NCBI RefSeq assembly: GCF_019059575.1
Contig: NW_024881501.1
Location: forward strand, 1,550,001 to 1,614,000
Length of the DNA stretch: 64,000 nucleotides
Direction: 5' to 3'
From: Amphibalanus amphitrite
Lineage: Eukaryota > Arthropoda > Thecostraca > Balanomorpha > Balanidae
How positions within the stretch are numbered: position 1 is the first letter of the stretch; each line of letters opens with the position of its first letter. A program made the position numbers and the translations under genes. Positions 3,675 to 44,317 of this stretch are shown here, piece after piece. Below the pieces are notes generated by a model. It did not search any database and had not been told where the DNA came from. It saw only the letters and a list, made by a program, of their open reading frames with translations.

Positions 3675-4414
3675 GTCAAGACGGCGAGCCACCAGCCTGC
3701 CCTCGCTGACCAGCCCACCGCCCAGCAGTTCGAGGGACCATGTACTCGCACAGGCCAACCCGGCCCTCAGCGCCTGGCCATTCTTATAAAGAAAAGAACG
3801 GAGGGACGCTCCGTCATTTCTGAGATTAGACGGAATTTGGTTATCATAAAAGGACGAAGACGAAAGACGGAACCCGTTAAAAGAACGAAGCCAGATTGAC
3901 GCTACCCCCACCCAAAAGGACGCGTTTCCGTATCATAAAGAGACAAAGACGCCTCTGGTGACGTAAGACTTTGCGTTGTTCGTGAAAAATAACGCATCAG
4001 AAATAGCGCTGCTCTTCAGCAGCGCTTTTTTACGGCATTGATACGATATTTAGCTGGTTGCGAGAGCAACTTGTGCGAAATGTGTTTTCAGGCTGCATGC
4101 TAATCGATATGTGAACTGTATGACATTGGTCGGGAGTTATTTCACACGAAAATTAGTCAATTTGACATGCAGACCAAGTAGGTACCTATAGACCGCCACC
4201 TTATCGTTCTGCAGCTATCGTTGTTTATCGGGCATACACATTAACAGGCAGGATTGGACACCTTGAGATGCAATATCCAGTAAGTGGTAGGTGTTTGCAA
4301 CTGCCTCCCAGTAGCTCCACCCTCACCTGGCCTGTGTCCTGTGTCCTCTGGCGCCTCGACTGGTATCACGGTTGGAGGTCTGAGTCACGTGGCACTGCAA
4401 CTTCTCGTTAGCAC
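3675..4414. other. intergenic, no gene seen
   Basis: No coding region is supported. The part at 3786-3960 contains GGACG/CGTCC repeats and the phrase 'ggttatcataaaaggac', which partly recurs near 6400 and 13860 beside the first foldback element. It is probably an old MITE. Confidence 0.4.
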
Positions 4415-6440: not shown

Positions 6441-6449
6441 GTTCTTTTT
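6441..6449. repeat. target site duplication, left, of foldback element 1
   Basis: GTTCTTTTT immediately precedes the element tip ACGTCTGTC. The identical 9 bp follow the right tip at 13848-13856. Confidence 0.9.
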
Positions 6450-6861
6450 ACGTCTGTCAAGACAGCCTCAGATTCAGATTCACTTTCAGAATCACATTCG
6501 GACCCCCTTAGATTTTCATAAAAACTGGTCCATGTGTACAGTTTTGGACGCTGATTCCAATGGTGAAGTCTGTTTTTCGCCACATATTACATATACTTTG
6601 GCCCCTAGAGGCATTCAAAGTTTTTTTGGGAAGGGGGACCCCCTTAGATTTTCATAAAAACTGGTCCATGTGTACAGTTTTGGACGCTGATTCCAATGGT
6701 GAAGTCTGTTTTTCGCCACATATTATACTTTGGCCCCTATAGGCATTCAATTTTTTTTTGGGGGGGAAAGGGGACCCCCTTAGATTTTCATAAAAACTGG
6801 TCCATGTGTACAGTTTTGGACGCTGATTCCAATGGTGAAGTCTGTTTTTCGCCACATGTTA

Positions 6862-7839
6862 GGGTAAGGTGCCTAATTAGCGACCCTTTCCGATTTGCGA
6901 CCTACCACCCTACAGAAAAACTGGCAGGAGAAAACGGGGTAAAAACATCGTCAAAAGGTCAGCTATACTTTGGTTATCAAAATAAATTATTTTCCGGTCG
7001 TCGATGTTTCTGGTGGGACGTTTCAGGTGAGTTTAAATAAAAATGTTAAGTTTCTTATCCAAAACGTGTGTGTTTGGGCCCTCTCTGATGAAAAGCGATG
7101 CACATTAGGATGATGCACCTTTTTTATTTTGAATCGACATTCCTTTTTCAATTGATTGCCGTTTTCTCATAGTGAATCGCTCAACTGTGCAGAGCATGGC
7201 GGTTAAAAATGTGTCGCAACTCATATTTCCTATTTGCGCCTGACATGGTCGCAAATAGCTCAAGAAGGGAAAGAAAGGGGAAAAGAGAGAAATGAAAATG
7301 AGGTGTTGCTGAAGCTTGCAATGTGTGGCAGGGGATGCCAAATGTCGTCACCGACTGCAGGGGTGCCGAATTCAGCGCGGACCTCGAATATCATACGAGA
7401 TAGCCCGCAAAATTTGGGTTTCCGCCTTCTTTTCGCCTTCGGTGCATCACGTGATCAGTTTTTACTTACGTAAATGTGTTGGATAAACGTTCCTGTTCGA
7501 GTGATTGAGTGCTTTGCGTATAGGTTACCTTTTTGAGATCATATTTCATCTTTTCAGGCGTTGCATTTTTCGCCATTTTTAATGTGGGGAAACCCATAGA
7601 CTTATTAGCGACCCTCCCCGGTCGCTAATCGGGAAGAGCTCCCTATTAGCGTTTTTTTGCAATGGTTTGCCAAAATGCTCACTACAAATAAGTTAGTGAA
7701 TATTGGGGCAGAAAATGACTATATTTTAATAGAAAAATGAACGATCTCTCCGAAAATCAAGTCAGTAATACAGTGGCACCTACAGAGCGTGAGCAATGAC
7801 GGTTCAAATTAAGGGGGTCGCTAATTAGGCACCTTACCC
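6862..7839. mobile_element. TA-flanked transposon GGGTAAGG, copy B, nested
   Basis: A 978-bp inverted copy of the element at 287-1265. It is flanked by TA at 6860-6861 and 7840-7841. The uninterrupted array unit reads 'cacatgttatactttgg' (for example at 8637-8653), which is the filled site minus the element and one TA. This proves a TA-duplicating insertion into the array. Confidence 0.95.
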
Positions 7840-9842
7840 TATACTTTGGCCCCTAGAGGCATTCAAAGTTTTTTTGGGGATGGGGGACCCCCTTAGATTT
7901 TCATAAAAACTGGTCCATGTGTTCAGTTTTGGACGCTGATTCCAATGGTGATGTCTGTTTTTCGCCACATATTATACTTTGGCCCCTAGAGGCATTCAAA
8001 GTTTTTTGGGGGAAGGGGGACCCCCTTAAATTTTCATAAAAATGGTCCATGTGTACAGTTTTGGACGCTGATTCCAATGGTGAAGTCTGTTTTTCGCCAC
8101 ATATTATACTTTGGCCCCTAGAGGCATTTAAAGTTTTTTGGGGGGAAGGGGGACCCCCTTAGATTTTCATAAAAACTGGTCCATGTGTTCAGTTTTGGAC
8201 GCTGATTCTAATGGTGAAGTCTGTTTTTCGCCACATATACTTTGGCCCCTAGAGGCATTCAAAGTTTTTTTGGGGGAAGGGGGACCCCTTAGATTTTTCA
8301 TAAAAACTGGTCCATGTGTACAGTTTTGGACGCTGATTCCAATGGTGAAGTCTGTTTTTCGCCACATATTACATATACTTTGGCCCCTAGAGGCATTCAA
8401 AGTTTTTTTGGGAAGGGGGACCCCCTTAGATTTTCATAAAAACTGGTCCATGTGTACAGTTTTGGACGCTGATTCCAATGGTGAAGTCTGTTTTTCGCCA
8501 CATATTATACTTTGGCCCCTAGAGGCATTCAATTTTTTTTTGGGGGGGGAAAGGGGACCCCCTTAGATTTTCATAAAAACTGGTCCATGTGTACAGTTTT
8601 GGACGCTGATTCCAATGGTGAAGTCTGTTTTTCGCCACATGTTATACTTTGGCCCCTAGAGGCATTCAAAGTTTTTTTGGGGATGGGGGACCCCCTTAGA
8701 TTTTCATAAAAACTGGTCCATGTGTTCAGTTTTGGACGCTGATTCCAATGGTGATGTCTGTTTTTCGCCACATATTATACTTTGGCCCCTAGAGGCATTC
8801 CAAGTTTTTGGGGGGAAGGGGGACCCCCTTAAATTTTCATAAAAATGGTCCATGTGTACAGTTTTGGACGCTGATTCCAATGGTGAAGTCTGTTTTTCGC
8901 CACATATTATACTTTGGCCCCTAGAGGCATTTAAAGTTTTTTGGGGGAAGGGGGACCCCCTTAGATTTTCATAAAAACTGGTCCATGTGTTCAGTTTTGG
9001 ACGCTGATTCTAATGGTGAAGTCTGTTTTTCGCCACATATTATACTTTGGCCCCTAGAGGCATTCAAAGTTTTTTTTGGGGAAGGGGGACCCCTTAGATT
9101 TTTCATAAAAACTGGTCCATGTGTACAGTTTTGGACGCTGATTCCAATGGTGAAGTCTGTTTTTCGCCACATATTATACTTTGGCCCCTAGAGGCATTCA
9201 AAGTTTTTTTTTGGGGGAAGGGGGACCCCCTTAGATTTTCATAAAGACTGGTCCATGTGTACAGTTTTGGACGCTGATTCCAATGGTGAAGTCTGTTTTT
9301 CGCCACATATTATACTTTGGCCCCTAGAGGCATTCATTTTTTGGGGGGAAAGGGGACCCCCTTAGATTTTCATAAAAACTGGTCCATGTGTACAGTTTTG
9401 GACGCTGATTCCAATGGTGAAGTCTGTTTTTCGCCACATGTTATACTTTGGCCCCTAGAGGCATTCAAAGTTTTTTTGGGGATGGGGGACCCTCTTAGAT
9501 TTTCATAAAAACTGGTCCATGTGTTCAGTTTTGGACGCTGATTCCAATGGTGATGTCTGTTTTTCGCCACATATTATACTTTGGCCCCTAGAGGCATTCA
9601 AAGTTTTTTTTGGGGAAGGGGGACCCCCTTAAATTTTCATAAAAATGGTCCATGTGTACAGTTCTGGACGCTGATTCCAATGGTGAAGTCTGTTTTTCGC
9701 CACATATTATACTTTGGCCCCTAGAGGCATTTAAAGTTTTTTGGGGGAAGGGGGACCCCCTTAGATTTTCATAAAAACTGGTCCATGTGTTCAGTTTTGG
9801 ACGCTGATTCCAATGGTAAAGTCTGTTTTTCGCCACATATTA

Positions 9843-10767
9843 GGGGAAGCGGGGGTAGCACCGCCATGTGGGAAACACCGCCATCCTCTCTATCGGCAAA
9901 ACTCTGAATTGTAAATGTAAACACCCGCCATTTCGGTGTCCGAACGGAAACGGGACGCCGCGTGAGGTAGGTTTCGCTAAGATTTATTTGATTTTGAGAT
10001 CGCAATTGCCCATTTTGTGAATTTCAAACCATCGTTGTAATCATTTGGCATGTTTGAGCAGCAAGTAAGTTATCATTATAAGTCAAAATGCCTTGATTTT
10101 TACGTTAAATTTGAGGGCATGAAGTGCTCTTTGTTGAGAAAGGAATTACAGAAGAATCGCATCCCGGCTTGTTTTGCTGTCGGGGCGTTGTCGGTCCATG
10201 ACTGTGAGTGGGGTAACACCGCCATGCTCGGCGGTGCTACCCCAAGGGGTGGCAAAATGGAAAAAGCCGCAATGATGATTCACTCAGCTCGGAGAAGAGC
10301 TTTAGTTAGGCCGCAAACGCCGTCTGTTTTTTAACCTCACGTTTGACTTCACTGGATGTTTCGAAATAAACGTGAATTTGTCATGCTTTATATGCATATT
10401 GTCCGCAACAAACAGTCTGATCTGTGACAAACTAACAACCAACTCTTGTGTGTCTTATATGAGTTTGAGTTACTATTTCAGACAGCAGTAACGCTTCCAA
10501 GGGTGGCTGTCACCGTAAGGCCGATCTGTGGATAACATCGCCATCAGTGGCGGTGCTACCCGCACATTTTTTGGAGGACGAAAAATGCAGGACTTGTTTT
10601 TGACGTCTGTAAAGTAGCGAAATTTTATAATGGAGCGTTGGAAACTATGCCAACATGTAGGAAAACATTCCTACTTTCACATGAATGCAAAAGAGCTTCG
10701 TTTTTACTACGCATATCAGCTCGGTGAGCAGAAATGCTTAAGGTGGCGGTGCTCCCCCCGCTTCCCC
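9843..10767. mobile_element. TA-flanked non-autonomous transposon, family GGGGAAGCGGGGG, nested
   Basis: A 925-bp unit with inverted ends GGGGAAGCGGGGGTAGCACC and its complement (one substitution). It is flanked by TA at 9841-9842 and 10768-10769 within an array unit. The terminal 'caccgcc/ggcggtg' motif recurs internally near 10215-10245 and 10535-10560. It has no transposase frame. Confidence 0.9.
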
Positions 10768-11361
10768 TATACTTTGGCCCCTAGAGGCATTCAAAGTTTT
10801 TTTGGGGGGGAAGGGGGACCCTCTTAGATTTTTCATAAAAACTGGTCCATGTGTACAGTTTTGGACGCTGATTCCAATGGTGAAGTCTGTTTTTCGCCAC
10901 ATATTATACTTTGGCCCCTAGAGGCATTCAAAGTATTTTTGGGGAAGGGGACCCCCTTAGATTTTCATAAAAACTGGTGAAGTCAATGTGATTCCAATGG
11001 TGAAGTCTGTTTTTCGCCACATATTATACTTTGGCCCCTAGAGGCATTCAAAGTATTTTTGGGGAAGGGGGACCCCCTTAGATTTTCATAAAAACTGGTC
11101 CATGTGTACAGTTTTGGACGCTGATTCCAATGGTGATATCTGTTTTTCGCCACATATTATACTTTGGCCCATAGGCGGCGGAACGATTTGAGACAAGGGG
11201 GGGGGGGGGGCACCATGGCTCAAGGAGCCAAACCTAGGGTACCCCCAAATCCTGTTTTCTCATCGGATTTAGGCCACTTATTTTTCGTCACAGCCCTGAC
11301 ACGATGATTTTTTTTTAATTTTATTTTTTACTAAACGAAAATGGCAGTTCACCCCCGTATG

Positions 11362-12228
11362 CAGGGGTGTAATTTTATATCTCTTTGTGGGGGCATATGC
11401 ACCCACAATCCTGAATTATGTATGCCCACACAATGATGAAAATGCACCCACAAGTCTTTTACAAGGCTGCAAGCGTCCTTTCGAGAGTTCGGTGCCCTTC
11501 GCATGCTCTAACGGCGTCCTCCTGACCGTCTCGCGTTCATGGATAATATAGCGTTTTTAATCACTCGGCGCCCTTCTGGGAGAACGGCGCACTTTTGACA
11601 GCACCGCGCCATTCTCATGGTCTAACGGCGCCCTCCTGACCGTCTCGCGTCCTTAGGTCTCTGTTCACCGTGCATCCCTCGACTGTTCGGCGCCCTTCTG
11701 GCCTCTCAGCGCCCCTGAACCACATATAGCGTTTTCAATCACTCGGCACCCTTTTACGAGAATGGCGCCCTTTTCATGATCTCAATGCGCCCTCGTAACC
11801 ATCTGGCGTCCCCACGTCCCCACCAACGTAGCACTACTGACTGTGCGGCGCCCTTCTGGCCTCTTAGCGCCCCTGGACCACATAGCGTTTTCAATCACTC
11901 GGCGCCCTCCCAAGAGAATGGCGCCCTTTTCATCGTCTCACGGCGCCCTCGTAAGTCGTAACCGTCTGGTGCCTCCACATTTGGTGCCCCTCCTACTGGA
12001 TGGCGCCCTCTACAGCTTTTTACGTCCTTCCGGTCAGTTTCCACTTTTAAGCGTGTATTTGCTAAGTCAGACACGTCACTTGAAGCGCCATTCGGCTAGC
12101 AATGTTATCAAATTCGGTGTTAATTTAGGCTCCCACATAAAGAATATCTATCGCGCCCCAAAACGGCCTGGCGCCGGGCGCCCCTACAGCTGGGCACCCA
12201 CAATCATTTTAGGAAAATTACACCCCTG
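11362..12228. mobile_element. hAT-type element CAGGGGTGTAATTTT, nested inside another hAT-type element
   Basis: The ends are CAGGGGTGTAATTTT and AAAATTACACCCCTG, with 8-bp duplications CCCGTATG at 11354-11361 and 12229-12236. The interior (about 11470-12010) is built from degenerate GGCGCCCTCCTGACCG-type repeats. A partial relative in the reverse direction lies at about 23985-24420. Confidence 0.9.
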
Positions 12229-12404
12229 CCCGTATGTGTGGTTAACTTTAAGCTGATCCCCAAGTACCTATGTGTTTGTCTCTTCCTTATTCTCGTTTGA
12301 TAAATTCCATTAATCCTACATGTAACAAATTACCAAGAAGCCATCGCATGGTACTAATCAGTGGCGAATCCCAGGGTGGAGGTCACATGGGTCATGACTT
12401 AGGG

Positions 12405-12945
12405 CATGGGGTCACCACATGCCTGCCAGGAGCACCACAGGCCTGACAGCCGACAGGGGCACCACAGGCCCGCCAGGGGTACCATAGGCCTAGCAGGGGC
12501 ACCACGGGCCTGTCAGTGGCACCACAGGCCTGTCAGGAGCACCATCGGCCTAGCAAAAGCACTACAGGTCTTCCAGGGGCACCACAGACCTGCCAGGGGC
12601 ACCAGAGGCCTGCCAGGGGCACTATCGGATTCGCAGGGGAACCACCGGCCTCGCAAGGGCACCATGGGCCTGTCAAGGGCACCACAAGCCTGTCGTTGGC
12701 AATTTAGGATTGTCAGAGGCACCACAAACCTGTCAAGGGCACCTGCGTTCTAACAGGGGCACCGAAAACCTGCCAAGGCCCAGGGACACCACAGGCTTAG
12801 CAAGGACACCACAGGCCTGTCAGGGCCCATGGGCACCTAAGTCATGTCAGGGCCCACCGTAGGCTTGTCAGGGGGCAGGGTAGGTAGGTACCACAGTCTT
12901 TCCAGGGGCATCAGCGGCCTAGCAGGTGCAGGGGCACTAGTCATC
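12405..12945. repeat. minisatellite, ~20-bp unit AGGGGCACCACAGGCCTGTC
   Basis: More than twenty degenerate tandem units of about 19-21 bp lie within the hAT-type element. The open frames across it (for example at 12406-12753) are products of the repeat and are not genes. Confidence 0.85.
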
Positions 12946-13847
12946 ACATGACTAACCAAAAATAAAGAAAATAAAAAAAAACTGAAAATAGGGCACCACC
13001 AAAATTAAGTGGCCGAAATCCGTTGAGGTTTTAATTTTGGGCATAGGTAGGGGCACCACTTCGATTCATGGCCCTCCCCTTGGAGTTTTCCCCGAATCTG
13101 CCCCTAGTACTAATACATCAAATTTAAGGGGGGCACCTTGCTATTGGTGCCCCCCTTGCAGAATTCAAGGGGGGGCACGGTGCCCCGGTGCCCCCCCCCG
13201 TTCCGCCGCCTATGCTTTGGCCCCTAGAGGCATTCAAAGTTTTTTGGGGGAAGGGGAACCCCCTTAGATTTTCATAAAAACTGGTCCTTTTGTACAGTTT
13301 TGGACGCTGATTCCAATGGTGAAGACTGTTTTTCGCCACATATTATACTTTGGCCTCAAGAGGCATTCAAAGTTTTTTGGGGGCGAAGGGGGACCCCCTT
13401 AGATTTAAAAAAAAAACTGGTCCATGAGTACAGGTTTGGACGCTGATTCCAATGGTGAAGTCTGTTTTTCGCCACATATTATACTTTGGCCCCTAGAGGC
13501 ATTCAAAGTTTTTTTTTGGGGGGGGGGAAGGGGGACCCCCTTAGATTTTCATAAAAACTGGTTCATGTGTACAGTTTTGGACGCTGATTCCAATGGTGAA
13601 GTCTGTTTTTCGCCACATATTAGTACACATGGACCAGTTTTTATGAAAATCTAAGGGGGTCCCCCTTCGCCCCCAAAAAACTTTGAATGCCTCTAGGGGC
13701 CAAAGTATAATATGTGGCGAAAAACAGACTTCACCATTGGAATCAGCGTCCAAAACTGTACACATGGACCAGTTTTTATGAAAATCTAAGGGGGTCCGAA
13801 TGTGATTCTGAAAGTGAATCTGAATCTGAGGCTGTCTTGACAGACGT

Positions 13848-13856
13848 GTTCTTTTT
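13848..13856. repeat. target site duplication, right, of foldback element 1
   Basis: GTTCTTTTT directly follows the right tip GACAGACGT and matches 6441-6449 exactly. Confidence 0.9.
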
Positions 13857-25762: not shown

Positions 25763-25771
25763 GTTTATCCC
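25763..25771. repeat. target site duplication, left, of foldback element 2
   Basis: GTTTATCCC directly precedes the tip ACGTCTGTC. The same 9 bp follow the right tip at 35016-35024. Confidence 0.95.
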
Positions 25772-28700
25772 ACGTCTGTCAAGACAGCCTCAGATTCAGA
25801 TTCACTTTCAGAATCACATTCGGACCCCCTTAGATTTTCATAAAAACTGGTCCATGGGTACAGTTTTGGACGCTGATTCCAATGGTGAAGTCTGTTTTTC
25901 GCCACATATTATACTTTGGCCCCTAGAGGCATTCAAAGTTTTTTTTGGGCGAAGGGGGACCCCCTTAGATTTTCATAAAAACTGGTCCATGGGTACAGTT
26001 TTGGACGCTGATTCCAATGGTGAAGTCTGTTTTTCGCCACATATTATACTTTGGCCACTAGAGGCATTCAAATTTTTTTTGGGCGAGGGGGGACCCCCTT
26101 AGATTTTCATTAAAACTGGTCCATGGGTACAGTTTTGGACGCTGATTCCAACGGTGAAGTCTGTTTTTCGCCACATATTATACTTTGGCCCCTAGAGGCA
26201 TTCAAAGTTTTTTTTTTGGGAAGGGGGACCCCCTTAGATTTTCATAAAAACTGGTCCATGTGTACAGTTTTGGACGCTGATTCCAATGGTGAAGTCTGTT
26301 TTTCGCCACATATTATACTTTGGCCCCTAGAGGCATTCAAAGTTTTTTTTTTTGGGCGAAGGGGACCCCCTTAGATTTTCATAAAAACTTGTCCATGTGT
26401 ACAGTTTTGGACGCTGATTCCAACGGTGAAGTCTGTTTTTCGCCACATATTATACTTTGGCCCCTAGAGGCATTCAAAGTTTTTTGGGGAAGGGGGACCC
26501 CTTAGATTTTCATAAAAACTGGTCCATGGGTACAGTTTTGGACGCTAATTCCCATGGTGAAGTCTGTTTTTCGCCACATATTATACTTTGCCCCTAGAGG
26601 CATTCAGATTCACTTTCAGAATCACATTCGGACCCCCTTAGATTTTCATAAAAACTGGTCCATGGGTACAGTTTTGGACGCTGATTCCAATGGTGAAGTC
26701 TGTTTTTCGCCACATATTATACTTTGGCCCCTAGAGGCATTCAAAGTTTTTTTTTGGGCGAAGGGGGACCCCCTTAGATTTTCATAAAAACTGGTCCATG
26801 GGTACAGTTTTGGACGCTGATTCCAATGGTGAAGTCTGTTTTTCGCCACATATTATACTTTGGCCCCTAGAGGCATTCAAAGTTTTTTTGGGGCGAGGGG
26901 GGACCCCCTTAGATTTTCATTAAAACTGGTCCATGGGTACAGTTTTGGACGCTGATTCCAACGGTGAAGTCTGTTTTTCGCCACATATTATACTTTGGCC
27001 CCTAGAGGCATTCAAAGTTTTTTTGGGGAAGGGGGACCCCCTTAGATTTTCATTAAAACTGGTCCATGTGTACAGTTTTGGACGCTGATTCCAATGGTGA
27101 GGTCTGTTTTTCGCCACATATTATACTTTGGCCCCTAGAGGCATTCAAAGTTTTTTTTTTGGGGCGAAGGGGACCCCCTTAGATTTTCATAAAAACTGGT
27201 CCATGTGTACAGTTTTGGACGCTGATTCCAACGGTGAAGTCTGTTTTTCGCCACATGTTATACTTTGGCCCCTAGAGGCATTCAAAATTTTTTGGGGAAG
27301 GGGGACCCCCTTAGATTTTCATAAAAACTGGTCCATGGGTACAGTTTTGGACGCTAATTCCCATGGTGAAGTCTGTTTTTCGCCACATATTATACTTTGC
27401 CCCTAGAGGCATTCAGATTCACTTTCAGAATCACATTCGGACCCCCTTAGATTTTCATAAAAACTGGTCCATGGGTACAGTTTTGGACGCTGATTCCAAT
27501 GGTGAAGTCTGTTTTTCGCCACATATTATACTTTGGCCCCTAGAGGCAATCAAAGTTTTTTTGGGGCGAAGGGGGACCCCCTTAGATTTTCATAAAAACT
27601 GGTCCATGTGTACAGTTTTGGACGCTGATTCCAACGGTGAAGTCTGTTTTTCGCCACATATTATACTTTGGCCCCTAGAGGCATTCAAAGTTTTTTGGGG
27701 GAAGGGGGACCCCCTTAGATTTTCATAAAAACTGGTCCATGGGTACAGTTTTGGACGCTGATTCCAATGGTGAAGTCTGTTTTTCGCCACATATTATACT
27801 TTGACCCCTAGAGGCATTCAAAGTTTTTTTTGGGCGAAGGGGGACCCCCTTAGATTTTCATAAAAACTGGTCCATGGGTACAGTTTTGGACGCTGATTCC
27901 AATGAAGAAGTTTGTTTTTCGCCACATATTATACTTTGGCCCCTAGAGGCATTCAAAGTTTTTTTTGGGCGAAGGGGGACCCCCTTAGATTTTCATTAAA
28001 ACTGGTCCATGGGTACAGTTTTGGACGCTGATTCCAACGGTGAAGTCTGTTTTTCGCCACATATTATACTTTGGCCCCTAGAGGCATTCAAAGTTTTTTG
28101 GGGGAAGGGGGACCCCCTTAGATTTTCATAAAAACTGGTCCATGTGTACAGTTTTGGACGCTGATTCCAATGGTGAAGTCTGTTTTTCGCCACATATTAT
28201 ACTTTGGCCCCTAGAGGCATTCAAAGTTTTTTTTTGGGCGAAGGGGGACCCCCTTAGATTTTCATAAAAACTGGTCCATGTGTACAGTTTTGGACGCTGA
28301 TTCCAACGGTGAAGTCTGTTTTTCGCCACATATTATACTTTGGCCCCTAGAGGCATTCAAAGTTTTTTGGGGAAGGGGGACCCCCTTAGATTTTCATAAA
28401 AACTGGTCCATGGGTACAGTTTTGGACGCTGATTCCCATGGTGAAGTCTGTTTTTCGCCACATATTATACTTTGCCCCTAGAGGCATTCAGATTCACTTT
28501 CAGAATCACAATCGGACCCCCTTAGATTTTCATAAAAACTGGTCCATGGGTACAGTTTTGGACGCTGATTCCAATGGTGAAGTCTGTTTTACGCCACATA
28601 TTATACTTTGGCCCCTAGAGGCATTCAAAGTTTTTTTTTGGGCGAAGGGGGACCCCCTTAGATTTTCATAAAAACTGGTCCATGGGTACAGTTTTGGACG

Positions 28701-31700
28701 CTGATTCCAATGGTGAAGTCTGTTTTTCGCCACATATTATACTTTGGCCCCTAGAGGCATTCAAAGTTTTTTTTGGGCGAGGGGGGACCCCCTTAGATTT
28801 TCATTAAAACTGGTCCATGGGTACAGTTTCGGACGCTGATTCCAACGGTGAAGTCTGTTTTTCGCCACATATTATACTTTGGCCCCTAGAGGCATTCAAA
28901 GTTTTTTTTGGGGGAAGGGGGACCCCCTTAGATTTTCATTAAAACTGGTCCATGTGTACAGTTTTGGACGCTGATTCCAATGGTGAAGTCTGTTTTTCGC
29001 CACATATTATACTTTGGCCCCTAGAGGCATTCAAAGTTTTTTTTTTGGGCGAAGGGGACCCCCTTAGATTTTCATAAAAACTGGTCCATGTGTACAGTTT
29101 TGGACGCTGATTCCAACGGTGAAGTCTGTTTTTCGCCACATATTATACTTTGGCCCCTAGAGGCATTCAAAGTTTTTTGGGGAAGGGGAACCCCCTTAGA
29201 TTTTCATAAAAACTGGTCCATGGGTACAGTTTTTGACGCTAATTCCCATGGTGAAGTCGGTTTTTCGCCACATATTATACTTTGCCCCTAGAGGCATTCA
29301 GATTCACTTTCAGAATCACATTCGGACCCTCTTAGATTTTCATAAAAACTGGTCCATGGGTACAGTTTTGGACGCTGATTCCAATGGTGAAGTCTGTTTT
29401 TCGCCACATATTATACTTTGGCCCCTAGAGGCATTCAAAGTTTTTTTTTGGGCGAAGGGGGACCCCCTTAGATTTTCATAAAAACTGGTCAATGGGTACA
29501 GTTTTGGACGCTGATTCCAATGGTGAAGTCTGTTTTTCGCCACATATTATACTTTGGCCCCTAGAGGCATTCAAAGTTTTTTTTGGGCGAGGGGGGACCC
29601 CCTTAGATTTTCATTAAAACTGGTCCATGGGTACAGTTTTGGACGCTGATTCCAACGGTGAAGTCTGTTTTTCGCCACATATTATACTTTGGCCCCTAGA
29701 GGCATTCAAAGTTTTTTTTTGGGGGAAGGGGGACCCCCTTAGATTTTCATTAAAACTGGTCCATGTGTACAGTTTTGGACGCTGATTCCAATGGTGAAGT
29801 CTGTTTTTCGCCACATATTATACTTTGGCCCCTAGAGGCATTCAAAGTTTTTTTTTGGGCGAAGGGGACCCCCTTAGATTTTCATAAAAACTGGTCCATG
29901 TGTACAGTTTTGGACGCTGATTCCAACGGTGAAGTCTGTTTTTCGCCACATATTATACTTTGGCCCCTAGAGGCATTCAAAGTTTTTTGGGGAAGGGGGA
30001 CCCCCTTAGATTTTCATAAAAACTGGTCCATGTGTACAGTTTTGGACGCTGATTCCAATGGTGAAGTCTGTTTTTCGCCACATATTATACTTTGGCCCCT
30101 AGAGGCATTCAAAGTTTTTTTTGGGCGAAGGGGGACCCCCTTAGATTTTCATAAAAACTGGTCCATGTGTACAGTTTTGGACGCTGATTCCAACGGTGAA
30201 GTCTGTTTTTCGCCACATATTATACTTTGGCCCCTAGAGGCATTCAAAGTTTTTTGGGGGAAGGGGGACCCCCTTAGATTTTCATAAAAACTGGTCCATG
30301 GGTACAGTTTTGGACGCTGATTCCCATGGTGAAGTCTGTTTTTCGCCACATATTATACTTTGCCCCTAGAGGCATTCAGATTCACTTTCAGAATCACAAT
30401 CGGACCCCCTTAGATTTTCATAAAAACTGGTCCATGGGTACAGTTTTGGACGCTGATTCCAATGGTGAAGTCTGTTTTTCGCCACATATTATACTTTGGC
30501 CCCTAGAGGCATTCAAAGTTTTTATGGGGCGAAGGGGGACCCCCTTAGATTTTCATTAAAACTGGTCCATGTGTACAGTTTTGGACGCTGATTCCAACGG
30601 TGAAGTCTGTTTTTCGCCACATATTATACTTTGGCCCCTAGAGGCATTCAAATTTTTTGGGAAGGGAGACCCCCTTAGATTTTCATAAAAACTGGTCCAT
30701 GGGTACAGTTTTGGACGCTGATTCCAATGGTGAAGTCTGTTTTTCGCCACATATTATACTTTGGCCCCTAGAGGCATTCAAAGTTTTTTTTGGGCAAAGG
30801 GGGACCCCCTTAGATTTTCATAAAAACTGGTCCATGGGTACAGTTCTGGACGCTGATTCCAATGGTGAAGTCTGTTTTTCGCCACATATTATACTTTGGC
30901 CCCTAGAGGCATTCAAAGTTTTTTGGGGAAGGGGGACCCCCTTAGATTTTCATAAAAACTTGTCCATGTGTACAGTTTTGGACGCTGATTCCCATGGTGA
31001 AGTCTGTTTTTCGCCACATATTATACTTTGGCCCTAGAGGCATTCAGATTCACTTTCAGAATCACATTCGGACCCCCTTAGATTTTCATAAAAACTGGTC
31101 CATGGGTACAGTTTTGGACGCTGATTCCAATGGTGAAGTCTGTTTTTCGCCACATATTATACTTTGGCCCCTAGAGGCATTCAAAGTTTTTTTTGGGCGA
31201 AGGGGGACCCCCTTAGATTTTCATTAAAACTGGTCCATGGGTACAGTTTTGGACGCTGATTCCAACGATGAAGTCTGTTTTTGGAATCAGCGTCTAAAAC
31301 TGTACACATGGACCAGTTTTAATGAAAATCTAAGGGGGTCCCCCTTCGCCAAAAAAAAAACTTTAAATGCCTCTAGGGGCCAAAGTATAATATGTGGCGA
31401 AAAACAGACTTCACCATTGGAATCAGCGTCCAAAACTGTACCCATGGACCAGTTTTTATGAAAATCTAAGGGGGTCCCCCTTCGCCCAAAAAAAACTTTG
31501 AATGCCTCTAGGGGCCAAAGTATAATATGTGGCGAAAAACAGACTTCACCATTGGAATCAGCGTCCAAAACTGTACCCATGGACCAGTTTTTATGAAAAT
31601 CTAAGGGGTCCCCCTTCCCCCAAAAAACTTTGAATGCCTCTAGGGGCCAAAGTATAATATGTGGCGAAAAACAGACTTCACCGTTGGAATCAGCGTCCAA

Positions 31701-34700
31701 AACTGTACACATGGACCAGTTTTAATGAAAATCTAAGGGGGTCCCCCTTCGCCCAAAAAAAAACTTTGAATGCCTCTAGGGGCCAAAGTATAATATGTGG
31801 CGAAAAACAGACTCCACCATTGGAATCAGCGTCCAAAACTATACCCATGGACCAGTTTTTTATGAAAATCTAAGGGGGCCCCCTTCCCCTAAAAAACTTT
31901 GAATGCCTCTAGGGGCCAAAGTATAATATGTGGCGAAAAACAGACTTCACCGTTGGAATCAGCGTCCAAAACTGTACACATGGACCAGTTTTTATGAAAA
32001 TCTAAGGGGGTCCCCCTTCGCCCAAAAAAAACTTTGAATGCCTCTAGGGGCCAAAGTATAATATGTGGCGAAAAACAGACTTCACCATTGGAATCAGCGT
32101 CCAAAACTGTACCCATGGACCAGTTTTTTATGAAAATCTAAGGGGGTCCCCCTTCCCCCAAAAAACTTTGAATGCCTCTAGGGGCCAAAGTATAATATGT
32201 GGCGAAAAACAGACTTCACCGTTGGAATCAGCGTCCAAAACTGTACACATGGACCAGTTTTAATGAAAATCTAAGGGGGTCCCCCTTCGCCCAAAAAAAA
32301 CTTTGAATGCCTCTAGGGGCCAAAGTATAATATGTGGCGAAAAACAGACTTCACCATTGGAATCAGCGTCCAAAACTGTACCCATTGACCAGTTTTTATG
32401 AAAATCTAAGGGGGTCCGAATGTGATTCTGAAAGTGAATCTGAATGCCTCTAGGGGCAAAGTATAATATGTGGCGAAAAACAGACTTCACCATGGGAATC
32501 AGCGTCAAAAACTGTACACATGGACAAGTTTTTATGAAAATCTAAGGGGGTCCCCCTTCTCTAAAAAACTTTGAATGCCTCTAGGGGCCAAAGTATAATA
32601 TGTGGCGAAAAACAGACTTCACCATTGGAATCAGCGTCCAAAACTGTACCCATGGACCAGTTTTTATGAAAATCTAAGGGGGTCCCCCTTCGCCCAACAA
32701 AAACTTTGAATGCCTCTAGGGGCCAAAGTATAATATGTGGCGAAAAACAGACTTCACCATTGGAATCAGCGTCCAAAACTGTACCCATGGACCAGTTTTT
32801 ATGAAAATCTAAGGGGGTCCCCTTCCCCAAAAAAACTTTGAATGCCTCTAGGGGCCAAAGTATAATATGTGGCGAAAAACAGACTTCACCGTTGGAATCA
32901 GCGTCCAAAACTGTACACATGGACCAGTTTTAATGAAAATCTAAGGGGGTCCCCCTTCGCCCAAAAAAAACTTTGAATGCCTCTAGGGGCCAAAGTATAA
33001 TATGTGGCGAAAAACAGACTCCACCATTGGAATCAGCGTCCAAAACTGTACCCATGGACCAGTTTTTATGAAAATCTAAGGGGGTCCGAATGTGATTCTG
33101 AAAGTGAATCTATATGCCTCTAGGGGCAAAGTATAATATGTGGCGAAAAACAGACTTCACCATGGGAATCAGCGTCCAAAACTGTACACATGGACAAGTT
33201 TTTATGAAAATCTAAGGGGTCCCCCTTCCCCAAAAAACTTTGAATGCCTCTAGGGGCCAAAGTATAATATGTGGCGAAAAACAGACTTCACCATTGGAAT
33301 CAGCGTCCAAAACTGTACCCATGGACCAGTTTTTATGAAAATCTAAGGGGGTCCCCCTTCGCCCAAAAAAAACTTTGAATGCCTCTAGGGGCCAGAGTAT
33401 AATATGTGGCGAAAACAGACTTCACCATTGGAATCAGCGTCCAAAACTGTACCCATGGACCAGTTTTTATGAAAATCTAAGGGGGTCCCCCTTCCCCCAA
33501 AAAACTTTGAATGCCTCTAGGGGCCAAAGTATAATATGTGGCGAAAAACAGACTTCACCGTTGGAATCAGCGTCAAAACTGTACACATGGACCAGTTTTT
33601 ATGAAAATCTAAGGGGGTCCCCCTTCGCCCCAAAAAAATTTTGAATGCCTCTAGGGGCCAAAGTATAATATGTGGCGAAAAACAGACTTCACCATTGGAA
33701 TCAGCGTCCAAAACTGTACCCATGGACCAGTTTTATGAAAATCTAAGGGGGTCCCCCTTCGCCCAAAAAAAAATTTGAATGCCTCTAGGGGCCAAAGTAT
33801 AATATGTGGCGAAAAACAGACTTCACCATTGGAATTAGCGTCCAAAACTGTACCCATGGACCAGTTTTTATGAAAATCTAAGGGGGTCCGAATGTGATTC
33901 TGAAAGTGAATCTGAATGCCTCCAGGGGCAAAGTATAATATGTGGCGAAAAACAGACTTCACCATGGGAATCAGCGTCCAAAACTGTACACATGGACAAG
34001 TTTTTATGAAAATCTAAGGGGGTCCCCCTTCCCCAAAAAAACTTTGAATGCCTCTAGGGGCCAAAGTATAATATGTGGCGAAAAACAGACTTCACCATTG
34101 GAATCAGCGTCCAAAACTGTACACATGGACCAGTTTTTATGAAAATCTAAGGGGGTCCCCCTTCGCCCAAAAAAAACTTTGAATGCCTCTAGGGGCCAAA
34201 GTATAATATGTGGCGAAAAACAGACTTCACCATTGGAATCAGCGTCCAAAACTGTACCCATGGACCAGTTTTTATGAAAATCTAAGGGGGTCCCCCTTCC
34301 CCCAAAAAACTTTGAATGCCTCTAGGGGCCAAAGTATAATATGTGGCGAAAAACAAACTTCACCGTTGGAATCAGCGTCCAAAACTGTACACATTGACCA
34401 GTTTTTATGAAAATCTAAGGGGGTCCCCCTTCGCCCCAAAAAAACTTTGAATGCCTCTAGGGGCCAAAGTATAATATGTGGCGAAAAACAGACTTCACCA
34501 TTGGAATCAGCGTCCAAAACTGTACCCATGGACCAGTTTTTATGAAAATCTAAGGGGGTCCCCCTTCGCCCAAAAAAAAACTTTGAATGCCTCTAGGGGC
34601 CAAAGTATAATATGTGGCGAAAAACAGACTTCACCATTGGAATCAGCGTCCAAAACTGTACCCATGGACCAGTTTTTATGAAAATCTAAGGGGGTCCCCC

Positions 34701-35015
34701 TTCCCCCAAAAAACTTTGAATGCCTCTAGGGGCCAAAGTATAATATGTGGCGAAAAACAGACTTCACCGTTGGAATCAGCGTCCAAAACTGTACACATGG
34801 ACCAGTTTTTATGAAAATCTAAGGGGGTCCCCCTTCGCCCCAAAAAAACTTTGAATGCCTCTAGGGGCCAAAGTATAATATGTGGCGAAAAACAGACTTC
34901 ACCATTGGAATCAGCGTCCAAAACTGTACCCATGGACCAGTTTTTATGAAAATCTAAGGGGGTCCGAATGTGATTCTGAAAGTGAATCTGAATCTGAGGC
35001 TGTCTTGACAGACGT
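25772..35015. mobile_element. foldback-type transposable element 2, two opposed arrays of ~135-bp units
   Basis: A 9,244-bp element has the same tips as element 1 and its own perfect 9-bp duplication. The left arm (25772 to about 31282) is a head-to-tail array in plus direction. The right arm (about 31283 to 35015) is the same unit in minus direction. The junction is abrupt: 'gaagtctgttttt' meets 'ggaatcagcgtctaaaac'. The end sequence 'cagattcactttcagaatca' recurs inside the array near 26604, 27413, 28489, 29299, 30377 and 31044, and inverted near 32437, 33103 and 33908. These mark higher-order blocks of about 5, 6 or 8 units. The many open frames (LDFHKNWSM, EVCFSPHIILWPL and so on) are repeats of one unit, not genes. 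It has no transposase. Confidence 0.95.
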
Positions 35016-35024
35016 GTTTATCCC
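35016..35024. repeat. target site duplication, right, of foldback element 2
   Basis: GTTTATCCC, identical to 25763-25771. Confidence 0.95.
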
Positions 35025-35293: not shown

Positions 35294-36124
35294 TCACTGG
35301 CGGCCCTCCGAGTCTCTGCGCTCTGCCTCCTCCCTGGGGCCGTCTCGCTCTGCCGCTGTGTCTGGGCTGTGCCGCCGCTCCCAGGCGTCCATCAGCCGCT
35401 GCAGCGTGGCCGCGTACTGGGCGCTGCCGCGCTCGGCGTGCTGCAGGCCGGGCAGCCGGAGCCGCAGCCGCTCGTACCAGCTGCCGACGGCGGCCAGGTG
35501 CGTCAGCGGCACGCCGACAGCGCGCGCCTGCGCCACCGTCACCGCCAGGCCCAGGTCGGCCAGGCTGGCCGCCTCCCCCGCCAGGTAGGGCGTGCGCTGC
35601 AGCTCGGCGTCCAGCACGGCCAGCGCCTCGGCCAGCGGCGGCAGCGCGTCCGCCGGCGGCCGGCCCGCGCGCCCAGCCATCACCGGCAGGTGGTACTCCT
35701 TGAGCCGCGGGTAGAGACACGTGACGTCGAACAGCGTCCAGCGCAGGCCGGCGGCGCGGCCGCGGACGGTGTCGGGCAGCAGCGCGGCGCCGGCCGGTCC
35801 GGCCTCCTCGGCCAGGTAGGCCATGATTGCGCGGCTCTCGGTCAGCACGGAGCCGCCGGCGGCCTCCAGCAGCGGCACCTGGTGCAGCGGGCTGAGCGCC
35901 CGGAACGCCGCCGTCAGCTGCTGGCTGCGCAGCACGTTAACGCGCACCAGCCGGACGCGCCGGCGCAGCTCGGGCAGGCAGCTGAGCGTCAGCAGCACCG
36001 CCTGAGACGGCGGCGGCACCGCGTCCCAGTACAGCTTCCACTCGCCGGACACAGGCGGCTCGGCGATGGCGGCCGCCAGCTGCTCGTCGGTCAGCTCGGG
36101 GCTCGGGTGCTGCTCCGACTCCAT
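35294..36124 (-). CDS. glutathione S-transferase-like protein, delta/epsilon-like, atypical active site
   Basis: This is a 276-residue intronless frame from the ATG at 36124; the upstream open frame starts only from GTG. Residues ~28-108 form the thioredoxin-like domain, with VPLL (cis-Pro 84) and ESRAIMAYL (96-104), which bind the glutathione gamma-glutamyl part in this superfamily. Residues ~125-250 form the helical domain, with PYLAGEAASLADL (179-191) matching the conserved N-capping motif. In delta/epsilon enzymes the N-terminal motif LYYxPGSxPCR supplies the catalytic Ser. Here residues 31-41 read LYWDAVPPPSQ, so the Ser position is Pro37 and the nearest Ser is 40. Family members usually have 210-230 residues. 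The extra length is an N-terminal ~27 residues and a charged Arg/Glu-rich tail. It is either a divergent enzyme or a non-catalytic member, and is presumably cytosolic. Confidence 0.8.
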   Translation of the reverse strand: MESEQHPSPELTDEQLAAAIAEPPVSGEWKLYWDAVPPPSQAVLLTLSCLPELRRRVRLVRVNVLRSQQLTAAFRALSPLHQVPLLEAAGGSVLTESRAIMAYLAEEAGPAGAALLPDTVRGRAAGLRWTLFDVTCLYPRLKEYHLPVMAGRAGRPPADALPPLAEALAVLDAELQRTPYLAGEAASLADLGLAVTVAQARAVGVPLTHLAAVGSWYERLRLRLPGLQHAERGSAQYAATLQRLMDAWERRHSPDTAAERDGPREEAERRDSEGRQ

Positions 36125-37659
36125 GGCGCGGCCGGCCCGTCTCCGCTGAGGCACGGTGCTCTCACGGTATCCGCCGAGCTGGACTCGCGGCGACCAGTCA
36201 CCGTCACTGGAGGATGGGTCGTCTTGGGCCGGCGTCCGGCCGGGCGCGCTCACTACACGGCGCGGCGTCCTGCCCGGCTCGGCGGCCGGCTGACTGGGCG
36301 GCCCGGCGCCCCCCGCTGGCGGGAGGTGCTCGGTAGGTGCCGCCGCCCGCCGCCGCCGGAACTCACTGCCCCGCGCGGCCCCCTCAAGGCCGAAGTCTAT
36401 CCCGATAACATCGACGCTGGAACGCTACGGCCGCAGAAACAGCTCAGCTGGGCTCAGTTTGAGGAGTGAGAACCACACAGCCACTGCCAGGTCCTTGTAC
36501 GTAAACACATCACATGCACATAATGCAGCCCCTGTCTCACTGCGTGGAAGATATTCATTTTTTCGATAAAACCGAGAATAATTCGCAGGCTATGGTATCA
36601 GTCGATCCTGACTCACTACAGACAAACGCGCGAAGCTCCACATAACGAAGCTCCACACGCGCGATGGGCAAATAGGCGGATAGGCAGGCCTTTATTACCG
36701 TTTACCGTACCGTATGTGAAGCGGTTTTTAGGCAAAAAAAATTCTGGCAGGCGGCAATTTTTCTGTTGGTAAAACTAGCCTCACGATGATTTTTTTCCCT
36801 TGTTATAAAGAAATCAGGTCTAGTGACAGTTAGATACAAATTTAAGTCGCCGCTTGGCGGCAAATGTCGGAACAGTCAAAGCTGGGCCAAAACTACTCCC
36901 GAGAAACTCGCCCTGGAGACGCCTCTGCGCAAGGTATAAGCTCAAAAATTTAACACAATGTGCCCAATGAAAAGCAAGGAAAAGTTACCAAATTTCGAGT
37001 CCCTAGTTTAAGCGGTTTTCCGTCGAGAGCAAAAAAAAAACTACAGAAGGAAGGGGGCCGATTCGCCCCCCCCCCCCCCCCACCAGTAATAGGGTTGAGT
37101 TATTTTATTGATTGCTAAGAATCTTTAGTTGAAATTAGTCCATTTTTTCCTTACTAGAGTAAAAAGTTAACTTTTTTTTACCAAACAATGCCCTCTCGGC
37201 TCTCACTATTCACTTATTATAATTTTAATTGTGAAAACATTTTTAGCACAAATAAAATGCAAATGTTTGATTGAGCAGTGTATGCAAAGGAAGCACATTT
37301 TCAGTTATGCAGGAAAATGCTGAAGTAAGACTTGTGTCAAAATCATTCGAATATAGGTAATAAGTCCGACACCGAGACAGTCAAAAAATGCGTATAGGAC
37401 ACATGTCATTGCTGACGCCGAAGCTGACTCGCCTGTAATAAAATCGGTCTTAAATAAATACCGGACAAACTGTCCCACCCAACCGGCAAAATAACCCTGC
37501 TAGCGGGGCAATTTGGCCACTTTGCAGACCTCTGTAAAACGTCAAAATTGAAGTATAAGTAGTTGCTCCATAATTTTCAGTTTACTGCACAAGAAAGTAA
37601 AATGAATGCTACACCTGCCAGCGTTTAGAGAGCGCAGAAATATGTCGCCAATATCGAGC
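36125..37659. other. intergenic, no gene seen
   Basis: The GC-rich stretch to 36470 is the likely promoter and 5' region of the GST-like gene. The rest is AT-rich. A G-tract/CCGATTCG/C-tract hairpin at 37040-37085 resembles the ends of the TTAA elements and suggests a decayed copy, but I find no second end. Confidence 0.4.
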
Positions 37660-40865: not shown

Positions 40866-41695
40866 ACTGATAGCTTCTGAGGAGCTTCTGAGGTTCATTC
40901 TGTAGTCAGCTGTACACACGGTAACGTTTTTGGCAGTGTTTCAATACGGACTTTAATGTAAAGTAACTATCAATGTCATTAACTGCTTTCGAATGTCAGC
41001 TCCAGAGAGAATCCATGCCAACGTTATGTGTCATTGCATAGTTTGCTGTCAGAATGACGGCGGAAAGTCCCCCCCCCCCCCGGCTGTCGGTCGTTAGTGG
41101 GTGAGCGGCAAACTCGCACGTCTCGTTAGAAAGTGCCACTCGGACATGACGGGCCGGCTGGCTCGCGCGCTGCGGAGATGAACCAGTTCCTTCGCCAGGC
41201 AGATTCCCTGCAAAGATGCCACGCCAACTAGTTACACCGACAACCGGTCGGGTATTTTTTTCAGAGATCACTCTCGCGCTAGGAACGTGCCGACTCTGCT
41301 AACTTTCTAGCGACATGCGTTGCGCAATTTCTCGACAAGCAGCACTTCTTAAACACCTGATAGACCGGATTATTAGTCCCTCTTGCCGGATTTGTTTAGC
41401 TCCTGTATACCTAGCTTGATTACTTTCACTTTCAGAGCTAGCGCACGCAATTGAAGGGACAGCTTGCACGTCTTTCCGAGTGATGTTGTCATAAATCGTT
41501 TAAACTGTTTACCAAACTCCCCATAGATTACTGTTCAGTGTCCCCTCATGAGTGGCTTTCCCGCAACACAACATCCGTCGTATCGAGGATCTTTATAATA
41601 CTGTGCGCCCCAGTTGCCAGTATGAGTGGCGCCTGCACCCGCTGGTTGGGCTCAGCGCGCCTGCAGTCTTCTCACCGGTCGGGCGCCCGTTTCAG

Positions 41696-43383
41696 GTGCT
41701 CGCCTGGGCTACCCTGCTGGCGGTGGCCGCCGCCGAGCGGGCCGCGCAGGGGCGGGACGACTCGCTACCGCTGGGAGACCACGCCGTCAGCTACGGCGGT
41801 CCCGGCATCTACGGCACCTACCCGGGCGACGGCGCCGCCTACGAGACCGACCACTACGTCGCCAACGACGGCGGCTACCAGTTCTCGGAGAGCGCCGCCG
41901 GCTACAAGGGCGGCTACCAGCCCGTCAACTACGGCGACAACAACGGCGGCTACGGCGGCGACGAGTACAGCCCCTACTACGAGAACTACCACTACGAGTA
42001 CGGCATCGACATCCCGCCCCTGAAGGCGCTCAAAAAGGGCATCAAGTACGGACTGAAGAAGGGCCTCATCCTGTGGGCCAAGGGCAAGACGGGCTTCCAG
42101 GGGCCGTACGGCTCCGAGGGCTACCACCAGTCGGGCGGGAAGGGAGGCTCCCTGTCCAACCAATACGAGGCGCCGCACGAGGTCAGCTACGGCCACGGCT
42201 ACGACTATCCGGAGGCGTACGACCACCGGCGCACCGGACTGTTCCGCAGCCTGTTCAAGGAGGAGGGCACCTACGAGGAGCCCGAGAAGGTGCCAGAGTA
42301 CAAGGGCAACGGCCAGACGTACGCCAAACAGCACCCGAGCCGCCGGCCGCGCAGCCACGGGTACGCCGACAGCTACGGCCACGAGCCCGAGCACGGCGGC
42401 CAGTACCACGGCCCTCCGGCGGGGTACGGACACGGCGGCGGTCACGGTAAAGGCGGTCACGGTAAAGGCGGTCACGGTAAAGGCGCTCACGGCGGTGGAT
42501 ATGGCGGCCATGGCGGTCACGAGAAGGGTCACGGAGGTCACGAAAAGGGACACGGAGGTCACGGCGGCTATGGCGGGTACGAAGAGGTCGGGTACGGCGG
42601 CCATCACGGAGGTCACGGAAAGGGTCACGGAGGTCACGGAAAGGGTCACGGAGGTCACGGCGGGTACGACGACTTCGAGGAGAGTTACGGTGGGCACCAT
42701 GCTGGACACCACGGCGGATACGGCGGCGGGCACCACGGCGGATACGGCGGCGGACCCCACGGCGGGTACGGCGGACCCCACGGCGGGTACGGTGAATCGT
42801 ACGCATACGATGAGTACTACGGTGACATCGACCCCTTCTACTACAACTACCAAAAGGGCAAAGGCAAGGGCAAGGGCCACCATGGCGGCAAAGGAAAAGG
42901 CAAGGGCAAAGGCTACTTCGCTAGCTTCATGGACATGTTCGCGTACAAGCCAAAGTACAAATACTTCCCGGTGTGGATCCCTAAGTTCAAGTTCTTCGTG
43001 CGCAAGGTGCCGATCCCGGTGCCCAAGCCGTACCACGTGCACGTGCCAGTGAAGGTGGCCAAGCCGGTGCCGGTGGCCAAGCCGTACCCGGTCGCCAAGC
43101 CCATCCACATCCCCGTACCGGTCCGCTACGAGGTCCCCATATTCAAGGTCAACAAGGGCTACGGCAAGGGCAAAGGCCACGGTAAGGGTCACGGCAAAGG
43201 TCACGGCAAAGGTCACGGCCACGGCTACGGATACGAGGATGACTACGGACACGGCCACCACTTCAAGGGTCACCACGGCAAGGGCCGCCACAAGGGCGCC
43301 GTGTTCGGGTACGGGCCGCCGCGCCAGGTGGACACCCACGGCTACGGACCGCCCAAGTCCTACTTCGGACAGTTCCACGGCGG
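41696..43383 (+). CDS. exon 2 of a secreted Gly/His/Tyr/Lys-rich structural protein
   Basis: The acceptor gcccgtttcag ends at 41695, and the donor gtgagt begins at 43384. The exon has 562 full codons plus two bases. It begins with the rest of a signal peptide (VLAWATLLAVAAAERAAQG). Next is a Tyr/Gly-rich region, then GHGKGG and GGHEKGH repeats at about residues 248-340 and HGGYGGG repeats at about 341-370. A basic KYFPVWIPKFKFF segment follows, then a Pro/Val/Lys stretch (KPVPVAKPYPVAKPIHIPVPV type) at about 430-485, and again GKGHGKGH at about 491-515. These are low-complexity repeats of cuticle-like or adhesive extracellular proteins. I do not recognise a named family or see a chitin-binding R&R domain. 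Tyr and Lys suggest crosslinking, and His suggests metal binding; both are inferences. Confidence 0.85.
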
Positions 43384-43728
43384 GTGAGTGCGCGGCGAGC
43401 GGCGAGCGGCCGCCGTCAGGAAGCCGGGGCCCAAACAGAGAGCGCGCTAACTGGCTTTCATACACGGTCACTGAACGTCTAATACTAACAGTCACAAAAA
43501 AACATCGGCTAGGATGCTGAGAATGCTTGTATGATGTAATAGTTTCATTTTGCCAAATGAGAAGTTTCCATGATATGATAAGTACTTGAGAGTAAGACAT
43601 ATGTATCAGCGGCCGAACGCAGAGAGGCCAGTCCCCTGTGCGGGCTGGGTGCGGTTTTCGACTGGGTGGCGTGTCCGCGGCGCTCCGCCCCGCCCCCCGT
43701 CCCGCCACTGACGGTATCTGTGTTGCAG

Positions 43729-44317
<589 letters not shown>

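Follow-up and report, generated by a model that had tools for sequence, protein, structure and literature searches.

The window, the whole 64,000-nucleotide stretch of Amphibalanus amphitrite DNA analyzed here (contig NW_024881501.1, positions 1,550,001 to 1,614,000), carries two elements, A and B, which are very probably copies of one non-autonomous cut-and-paste (class II) foldback transposon family. The elements of this family feature a simple plan: a tip of approximately 50 bp, of which the outer 26 bp are nearly invariant; a tandem array of a 135-bp unit; and the facing mirror image of both, with little or nothing in between. It is hardly in doubt that this is a mobile, non-autonomous foldback, and the "satellite" has in all likelihood spread by transposition and is not a locus-bound array. 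With approximately 100 copies, satellite and transposon appear to be the same thing in this genome. The family shows the features of class II elements with terminal inverted repeats, namely inverted tips, target duplications of fixed length, and empty target sites, as well as those of foldbacks: long inverted arms of direct repeats in all 24 copies read through and a 9-bp duplication.

Element A comprises positions 25772-35015 (9,244 bp) and lies between two copies of the 9-bp duplication GTTTATCCC (25763-25771 and 35016-35024), which stand immediately outside its ends ACGTCTGTC and GACAGACGT, as an earlier note on this DNA had described. Since 9-bp direct matches at both element spacings are rare (7 of 111,322 positions in the 64-kb window), chance is a very poor explanation for a perfect 9-bp repeat located precisely at the tips. 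The inverted ends are perfect over 174 bp, a longer stretch than the 50-bp tip of the earlier note. The arms hold 41 unit matches on the plus strand (25822-31282) and 28 on the minus strand (31281-34965), in agreement with the opposed arrays of approximately 40 and 28 units of ~135 bp that had been claimed. The units are variants arranged in higher-order blocks, with mean differences in the left arm being minimal at lags of 14, 6, and 8 units. The tip segment CAGATTCACTTTCAGAATCACATTC is part of a variant unit met repeatedly in both arms: tip bases 23-60 have six internal copies on the plus strand and three on the minus strand, one of the latter with bases 27-60 only. The outermost tip bases are absent from the inside of A and B, as judged by exact searches with the outer 9 bp and with bases 8-26, both of which returned the four ends only. 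Hairpin folding of the 58-bp tip is not significant (z -1.0). The features of A are as follows:

25763..25771, no strand: left target-site duplication GTTTATCCC; the target is present once at the empty paralogous sites
25772..25831, plus strand: left tip of 60 bp, the same at all four ends of A and B; the genome has 178 exact occurrences of its first 26 bp
25822..31282, plus strand: left arm with 41 units (~135 bp each), the variants forming higher-order blocks
26602..31079, plus strand: six internal tip-segment (bases 23-60) copies in the left arm, at 26602, 27411, 28486, 29296, 30374, and 31042
31270..31300, no strand: centre, strand switch GAAGTCTGTTTTT/GGAATCAGCG, an inverted repeat with a 15-nt loop and without a middle domain
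31281..34965, minus strand: right arm, 28 units of ~135 bp
32408..33917, minus strand: three internal tip-segment copies in the right arm (32408-32445, 33078-33111, 33880-33917)
34956..35015, minus strand: right tip
35016..35024, no strand: right target-site duplication GTTTATCCC

Element B (6450-13847) is the second copy in the window; both of its ends match the 60-bp tip of A at 100%, and it has a duplication of its own, GTTCTTTTT. The satellite share of B is only 45% because three foreign inserts, which bear inverted ends of their own, are nested in it. A unit stretch of ~17 bp, with two differences between its copies, is repeated at both sides of the largest insert. The features of B are as follows:

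6441..6449, no strand: left target-site duplication GTTCTTTTT
6450..13847, plus strand: element B, 7,398 bp, tips at 6450-6509 and 13788-13847
6500-6861, 7840-9842, 10768-11174, and 13211-13622, plus strand: plus units
6862..7839, no strand: insert of 978 bp, inverted ends GGGTAAGGTGCCTAATTAGCGACCC, TA on both flanks
9843..10767, no strand: insert of 925 bp, inverted ends GGGGAAGCGGGGG, TA flanks, at the same unit position as the insert at 6862..7839
11175..13210, no strand: insert of 2,036 bp, inverted ends GGCGGAACG/CGTTCCGCC
13623-13797, minus strand: minus units
13848..13856, no strand: right target-site duplication GTTCTTTTT

The two smaller inserts have different sequences and share the same TA of the satellite unit (CACATRTTA/TATACTT); the insert at 11175-13210 includes a 20-bp tandem repeat. 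Nesting apparently goes both ways: one foldback (L040, C99) seems to have inserted in a member of the GGGGAAGC-ended family, and B in turn contains a nested insert of that family.

The whole genome (807.55 Mb, 2,644 contigs) contains 204 places matching the 26-bp tip with up to three mismatches (98 forward, 106 reverse), and the reversed-pattern control none. Exact tips number 178. G or C stands directly outside 116 of these and A or T outside 62 (binomial P 6e-5 against one half, with a window G+C of 0.494), which suggests a weak target preference. The listed set comprises 162 exact tips; 16 exact tips and 26 further tips with mismatches stand outside it. Pairs were defined as neighbouring plus and minus tips that face inward within 25 kb, and the listed tips resolve into 64 such pairs and 34 singles on 92 contigs. 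Exact 26-bp tips form the terminal inverted repeats at both ends of every listed pair, and pair lengths range from 1,300 to 22,166 bp with a median of 6,284 bp. In the 36 copies with both ends read (13, 11, 10, and 2 in successive readings), perfect duplications of at least 9 bp were found in 34, two of them being 10 bp long. These 36 copies represent 35 distinct sites because two of them, C463 and C467, have common flanks. The tip search with collected flanks proposed in the earlier note thus recovered different 9-bp duplications. C463 and C467 (L060, L061, L064, L065) have their flanks, their duplication, and identical 100-bp end pieces in common and differ in length (2,034 versus 3,693 bp); they probably represent one insertion with two array lengths and may be two haplotypes of it or a segmental duplication. 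A family sharing just the first 16 bp of the tip was not found, with one match versus two in the control. Neither the tip in viral contigs nor the unit in prokaryote genomes gave any match.

Target sites without the element were also found. The query for A consisted of its flanks joined with a single copy of the 9 bp and returned eight matches. Two are the flanks of A itself; four are paralogous sites without interruption (78-83%); the remaining two stop three bases beyond the junction and were left uncounted. Once aligned, the four paralogous sites carry the target once; the alignment has a 3-bp gap at this point, and all but one of the four deviate from A in the nine bases. The empty target of B has 100 candidate places, and all 40 that were scored run across the junction with 98-99% identity; for the C104 copy there are 1,068 candidates, and all 40 scored ones agree with the full 220 bp at 99%. 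The C21 copy lies inside a local tandem repeat, and its intact target occurs three times in neighbouring repeat copies. Of the empty allelic sites called for in the earlier note, the targets without the element are therefore present for A, B, and the C104 copy, but they are copies of dispersed repeats that the elements entered and not proven alleles. The near-invariance of the tips and the 98-99% identity of the empty targets suggest that movement was recent. The claim that the whole satellite block is mobile as one unit is supported by the duplications, the empty targets, and the centre junctions described below.

Satellites are usually classed apart from transposons, which are credited at most with seeding them. 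In this genome, a 29-bp core taken from the unit and searched with up to two mismatches is present at 3,739 places (1,883 forward, 1,856 reverse; control 0). The 22 copies obtained whole contain 846 unit cores, which gives 3,922 when scaled to 204 tips, taking these 22 copies as typical. Comparison of 3,922 with 3,739 implies that the elements can account for all or nearly all of the assembled satellite. Exact matches to the unit were listed for C4, C6, and C12, and all of these fall within tip-bounded elements. Long arrays without mobile ends, the mark of a classical satellite, were not found in the assembly, in which unassembled heterochromatin is not visible.

The anatomy of the family was followed in 24 copies read through: 20 fetched whole, A, and B—together the 22 whole copies, which exclude elements above 9.8 kb—plus C571 and C330. 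The interiors of 40 of the 64 listed pairs lie outside this reading. All 24 copies consist of plus units followed by minus units with a single switch, as expected from the inverted, repeat-built arms of the earlier note. Satellite content is 92-97% in 18 of the 22 whole copies; the other four, with 35-83%, carry non-satellite DNA. The perfect inverted stretch at the ends measures 26-507 bp and the arms hold 2-48 unit matches (22 copies each), the minimum of two being found in the minus arms of B and L033. Non-satellite DNA is present in B, L042, L044, L046, C571, and C330; the insert of L046 is flanked by plus units on both sides.

In the proposed mechanism, a transposase made elsewhere would bind the tips and perhaps also the tip-like segments inside the arms; it would cut with a 9-nt stagger, and the whole block would insert. 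The arms would gain or lose blocks of units through unequal exchange or slippage, and occasional new centres could arise from the joining of opposed arrays.

Several observations weigh against this picture. Among the 162 listed exact tips, 34 have no exact partner within 25 kb, although the single tips C58 and C283 do have a partner tip with a one-base variant. Two of the 36 duplications are imperfect, that of C13 (8 bp, register off by one) and that of C99 (8 of 9). A stretch of 494 bp that is not satellite stands precisely at the centre of L044, and L042 and C330 have in common ~40 bp of non-unit DNA at theirs, as judged by eye; a small middle domain is hence possible in those copies. Array lengths depend on the assembly. 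Finally, no transposase was found inside any copy examined, with MULE and IS1595-type transposases searched and other transposase families not searched. The genome holds at least 111 matches to MULE (PF10551; 150 of 204 candidates scored) and 21 to DDE_Tnp_IS1595 (PF12762), and none of these 111 and none of these 21 lies inside the 64 listed tip pairs. The transposase between the same tips, which the earlier note had proposed to look for, was accordingly missing from the copies examined. On contigs with a listed pair, there are seven MULE matches and one IS1595 match, all outside the pairs and the nearest 8 kb off. Ten MULE loci, taken with 1.5-kb flanks that may be too short, have no tip like that of the foldback; the best reaches 15 of 20 over the first 20 bp.

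One alternative holds that some large copies are autonomous and encode a transposase internally, the elements read being their deleted relatives. Copies do reach 22 kb, and the largest, C571 (L082-L083), has 13.6 kb of non-satellite DNA. That insert, however, is bounded by inverted ends of its own, TGTCGTTTCGGGAACTAGCG, and its longest frame does not exceed 152 aa. In C330 there are frames of 426 aa, one of which resembles reverse transcriptase, though with a score (E 8e-5) that falls short of the Pfam cut-off; in L042, direct repeats of ~217 bp enclose a long frame that looks, by eye, like that of a retroelement. With no MULE or IS1595-type match within a listed pair—40 of these interiors being outside the reading—autonomous large copies are improbable.

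Within the reading of a non-autonomous foldback, further alternatives concern its presumed helper. MULE duplications are 8-11 bp long, usually 9 bp, and the 9-bp length found in this family (34 of 36 copies) fits this range. Merlin elements make duplications of 8-9 bp, and this, together with the 21 genomic DDE_Tnp_IS1595 matches, speaks for a Merlin/IS1595-type or other transposase in place of a Mutator-like one. The duplications of the family are, on the other hand, almost strictly 9 bp, and MULE-domain matches are more numerous (at least 111), so that such a replacement has a low probability. Given a mobile non-autonomous foldback, a Mutator-like helper in trans is the best guess, favoured by a little over even chances; one of other or no named type is a possible but clearly weaker choice, and a Merlin/IS1595-like one is unlikely. 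The guess follows from the 9-bp duplications and the repeat-built arms by way of general family traits and of a passage in PMC4079207, according to which most foldbacks seem to belong to Mutator. Because no transposase was found between matching tips in the copies examined, descent from Foldback or Mutator-like elements is only a possibility, and the family is filed under the foldback kind and not as a member of Mutator.

A further alternative is that each foldback is made anew at its site from two single arrays and is not copied as a unit. The diversity of centres would fit this: approximately 17 kinds were seen by eye among 24 copies, 12 of them once, and the smallest loop at the centre measures 2-86 nt (21 copies; L044 was excluded because of its insert). 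Ten copies in four groups, however, have exact or near-exact common centres at different sites and with different duplications. The first group is L036, L038, L041, and, in the other orientation, L050; the second is L033 and L037; the third is L048 and L049, one A apart; and the fourth is L040 and, in the other orientation, L047. The 40-bp centre common to L042 and C330 and the identical tips that flank every centre point the same way. As the sole route, formation anew is spoken against and has a slim chance, although it may explain how new centres arise. Common junctions at different sites together with differing arm lengths imply instead that foldbacks are copied as units, with the arrays changing afterwards or during transposition. 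L036 and L038 illustrate this: they are collinear from the right tip with 97.5% identity over 5.35 kb, a centre-anchored alignment gives 93.4%, and blocks of units have been gained in one or the other arm. Inversion, considered from the near-equal total length of this pair, was rejected since windows of the two align in the same order along each arm, with blocks gained. Internal inversion was likewise rejected for the flipped centres of L050 and L047, which are accounted for by insertion of the element in the opposite orientation.

Strong homogenization between the arms of one element was a third candidate that was rejected. The outer 280 bp of the arms show 8.0 differences within versus 8.9 between elements (permutation P 0.005; 20 of the 22 elements, L042 and B being dropped). 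For 79% of 746 units of 125-145 bp, the nearest relative lies in another element; concerted evolution within an element is hence weak.

One more alternative is a conventional satellite that spread through recombination or extrachromosomal circles, its tips being mere edge sequence and its 9-bp repeats accidental or made by repair. It would explain the long tandem arrays with higher-order blocks and the freely variable arm lengths. It is nevertheless highly improbable: 34 of 36 copies show, directly at an invariant tip, a perfect duplication of 9 bp or more; there are target sites with the duplicated bases present once; and the unit count scales to the tips with hardly any excess, the listed exact matches to the unit (C4, C6, C12) being within tip-bounded elements.

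The tip of the foldback also matches a gag-like sequence. Its first 22 bp followed by a base other than A occur at eight places (control 0). Element ends in which one base varies account for four; the remaining four (C525, C555, C596, C761) belong to one nearly identical sequence, a separate repeat family:

L100:776-797 (C525), minus strand: 22-bp tip match in gag-like frame; also in L096-L099

The 1.5-kb piece from C525 has one frame open throughout, with a match to DUF1759 (PF03564; E 2e-17) and cysteine-histidine clusters, recognized by eye, of the kind present in BEL/Pao gag. A given 22-mer is expected by chance ~9e-5 times in this genome; the match is thus far above chance. Speculatively, it may reflect a transfer of sequence between the tip and a retroelement, perhaps as early as the origin of the foldback family.

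Besides the two elements, the window contains a minus-strand frame with glutathione S-transferase domains (35294-36424), the near end of which is 270 bp from the right duplication of A; a plus-strand frame of 611 aa at 41552-43387, rich in Gly, His, Lys, and Tyr and without a Pfam match; and a (GCA)n run of ~92 copies at 43993-44269. Rfam and tRNA matches in the 64-kb window are both 0.

With approximately 100 dispersed copies at known insertion sites, the growth and contraction of arrays and the rearrangement of centres can be followed. The common centre junctions serve as heritable barcodes, so that array change can be ordered on a genealogy of copies, and the recent movement suggested by tips and empty targets could make the mechanism testable. 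A speculative account, more doubtful than not, is that of a satellite existing only as a transposon: the arrays would be a putative reiterated binding platform for a trans-acting transposase, in the form of pure inverted arrays without a middle, and selection for more binding sites together with array recombination would drive growth to tens of units.

Foldback (FB) of Drosophila melanogaster has inverted arms of short direct repeats, a 9-bp duplication, and non-autonomous copies. Its arm repeats are ~10, 20, and 31 bp long, and a loop is often present. FB and FB-like elements resemble the present family in arms, duplication, and non-autonomy, as compared by general description and not by sequence. 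Helitrons and Helentrons, to our knowledge, make no target duplication and have no inverted repeats at their very ends; unlike them, the present family has 9-bp duplications and inverted tips. Duplications in the P superfamily are 7-8 bp long, and the present family, with at least 9 bp in 34 of 36 copies, departs from this superfamily and from its member Galileo.

Galileo features long inverted arms with internal tandem repeats, as does the present family, and these repeats were proposed as extra transposase-binding sites (PMC3688188, PMC4079207). Dispersal of satellite-like arrays by a mobile element is a likeness to the miDNA4 miniature inverted-repeat transposable elements (MITEs) of Xenopus and to oyster Helentrons (PMC12628747, PMC7492417). 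Satellite-carrying elements have an internal array between other parts (PMC12628747, PMC9659126, PMC7492417), whereas the present element is two opposed arrays.

The closest known system is Tetris of Drosophila virilis, which is likewise a foldback with tandem repeats in its inverted arms and for which no transposase was found (PMC4079207). Tetris makes duplications of 8-10 bp and was suggested to belong to the Mutator superfamily; allelic change of its array length (3 versus 4 repeats) is reported. Its arms are up to 1,735 bp long, and it has a flanking domain of up to 866 bp, an inner domain, and a middle domain; only three copies are structurally complete, and its 220-bp repeat also occurs in satellite arrays outside the element (all PMC4079207). 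The present family, by contrast, has a tip of ~50 bp, arms of up to 48 units, and ~100 copies, and nearly no satellite need lie outside its elements. In 23 of the 24 copies read, the non-unit DNA at the centre amounts to no more than a few tens of bp. No published description of this foldback family was found in literature searches, whose coverage leaves subscription journals largely outside. The foldback kind itself is already known; what appears to be new is a foldback that is almost wholly two opposed satellite arrays.

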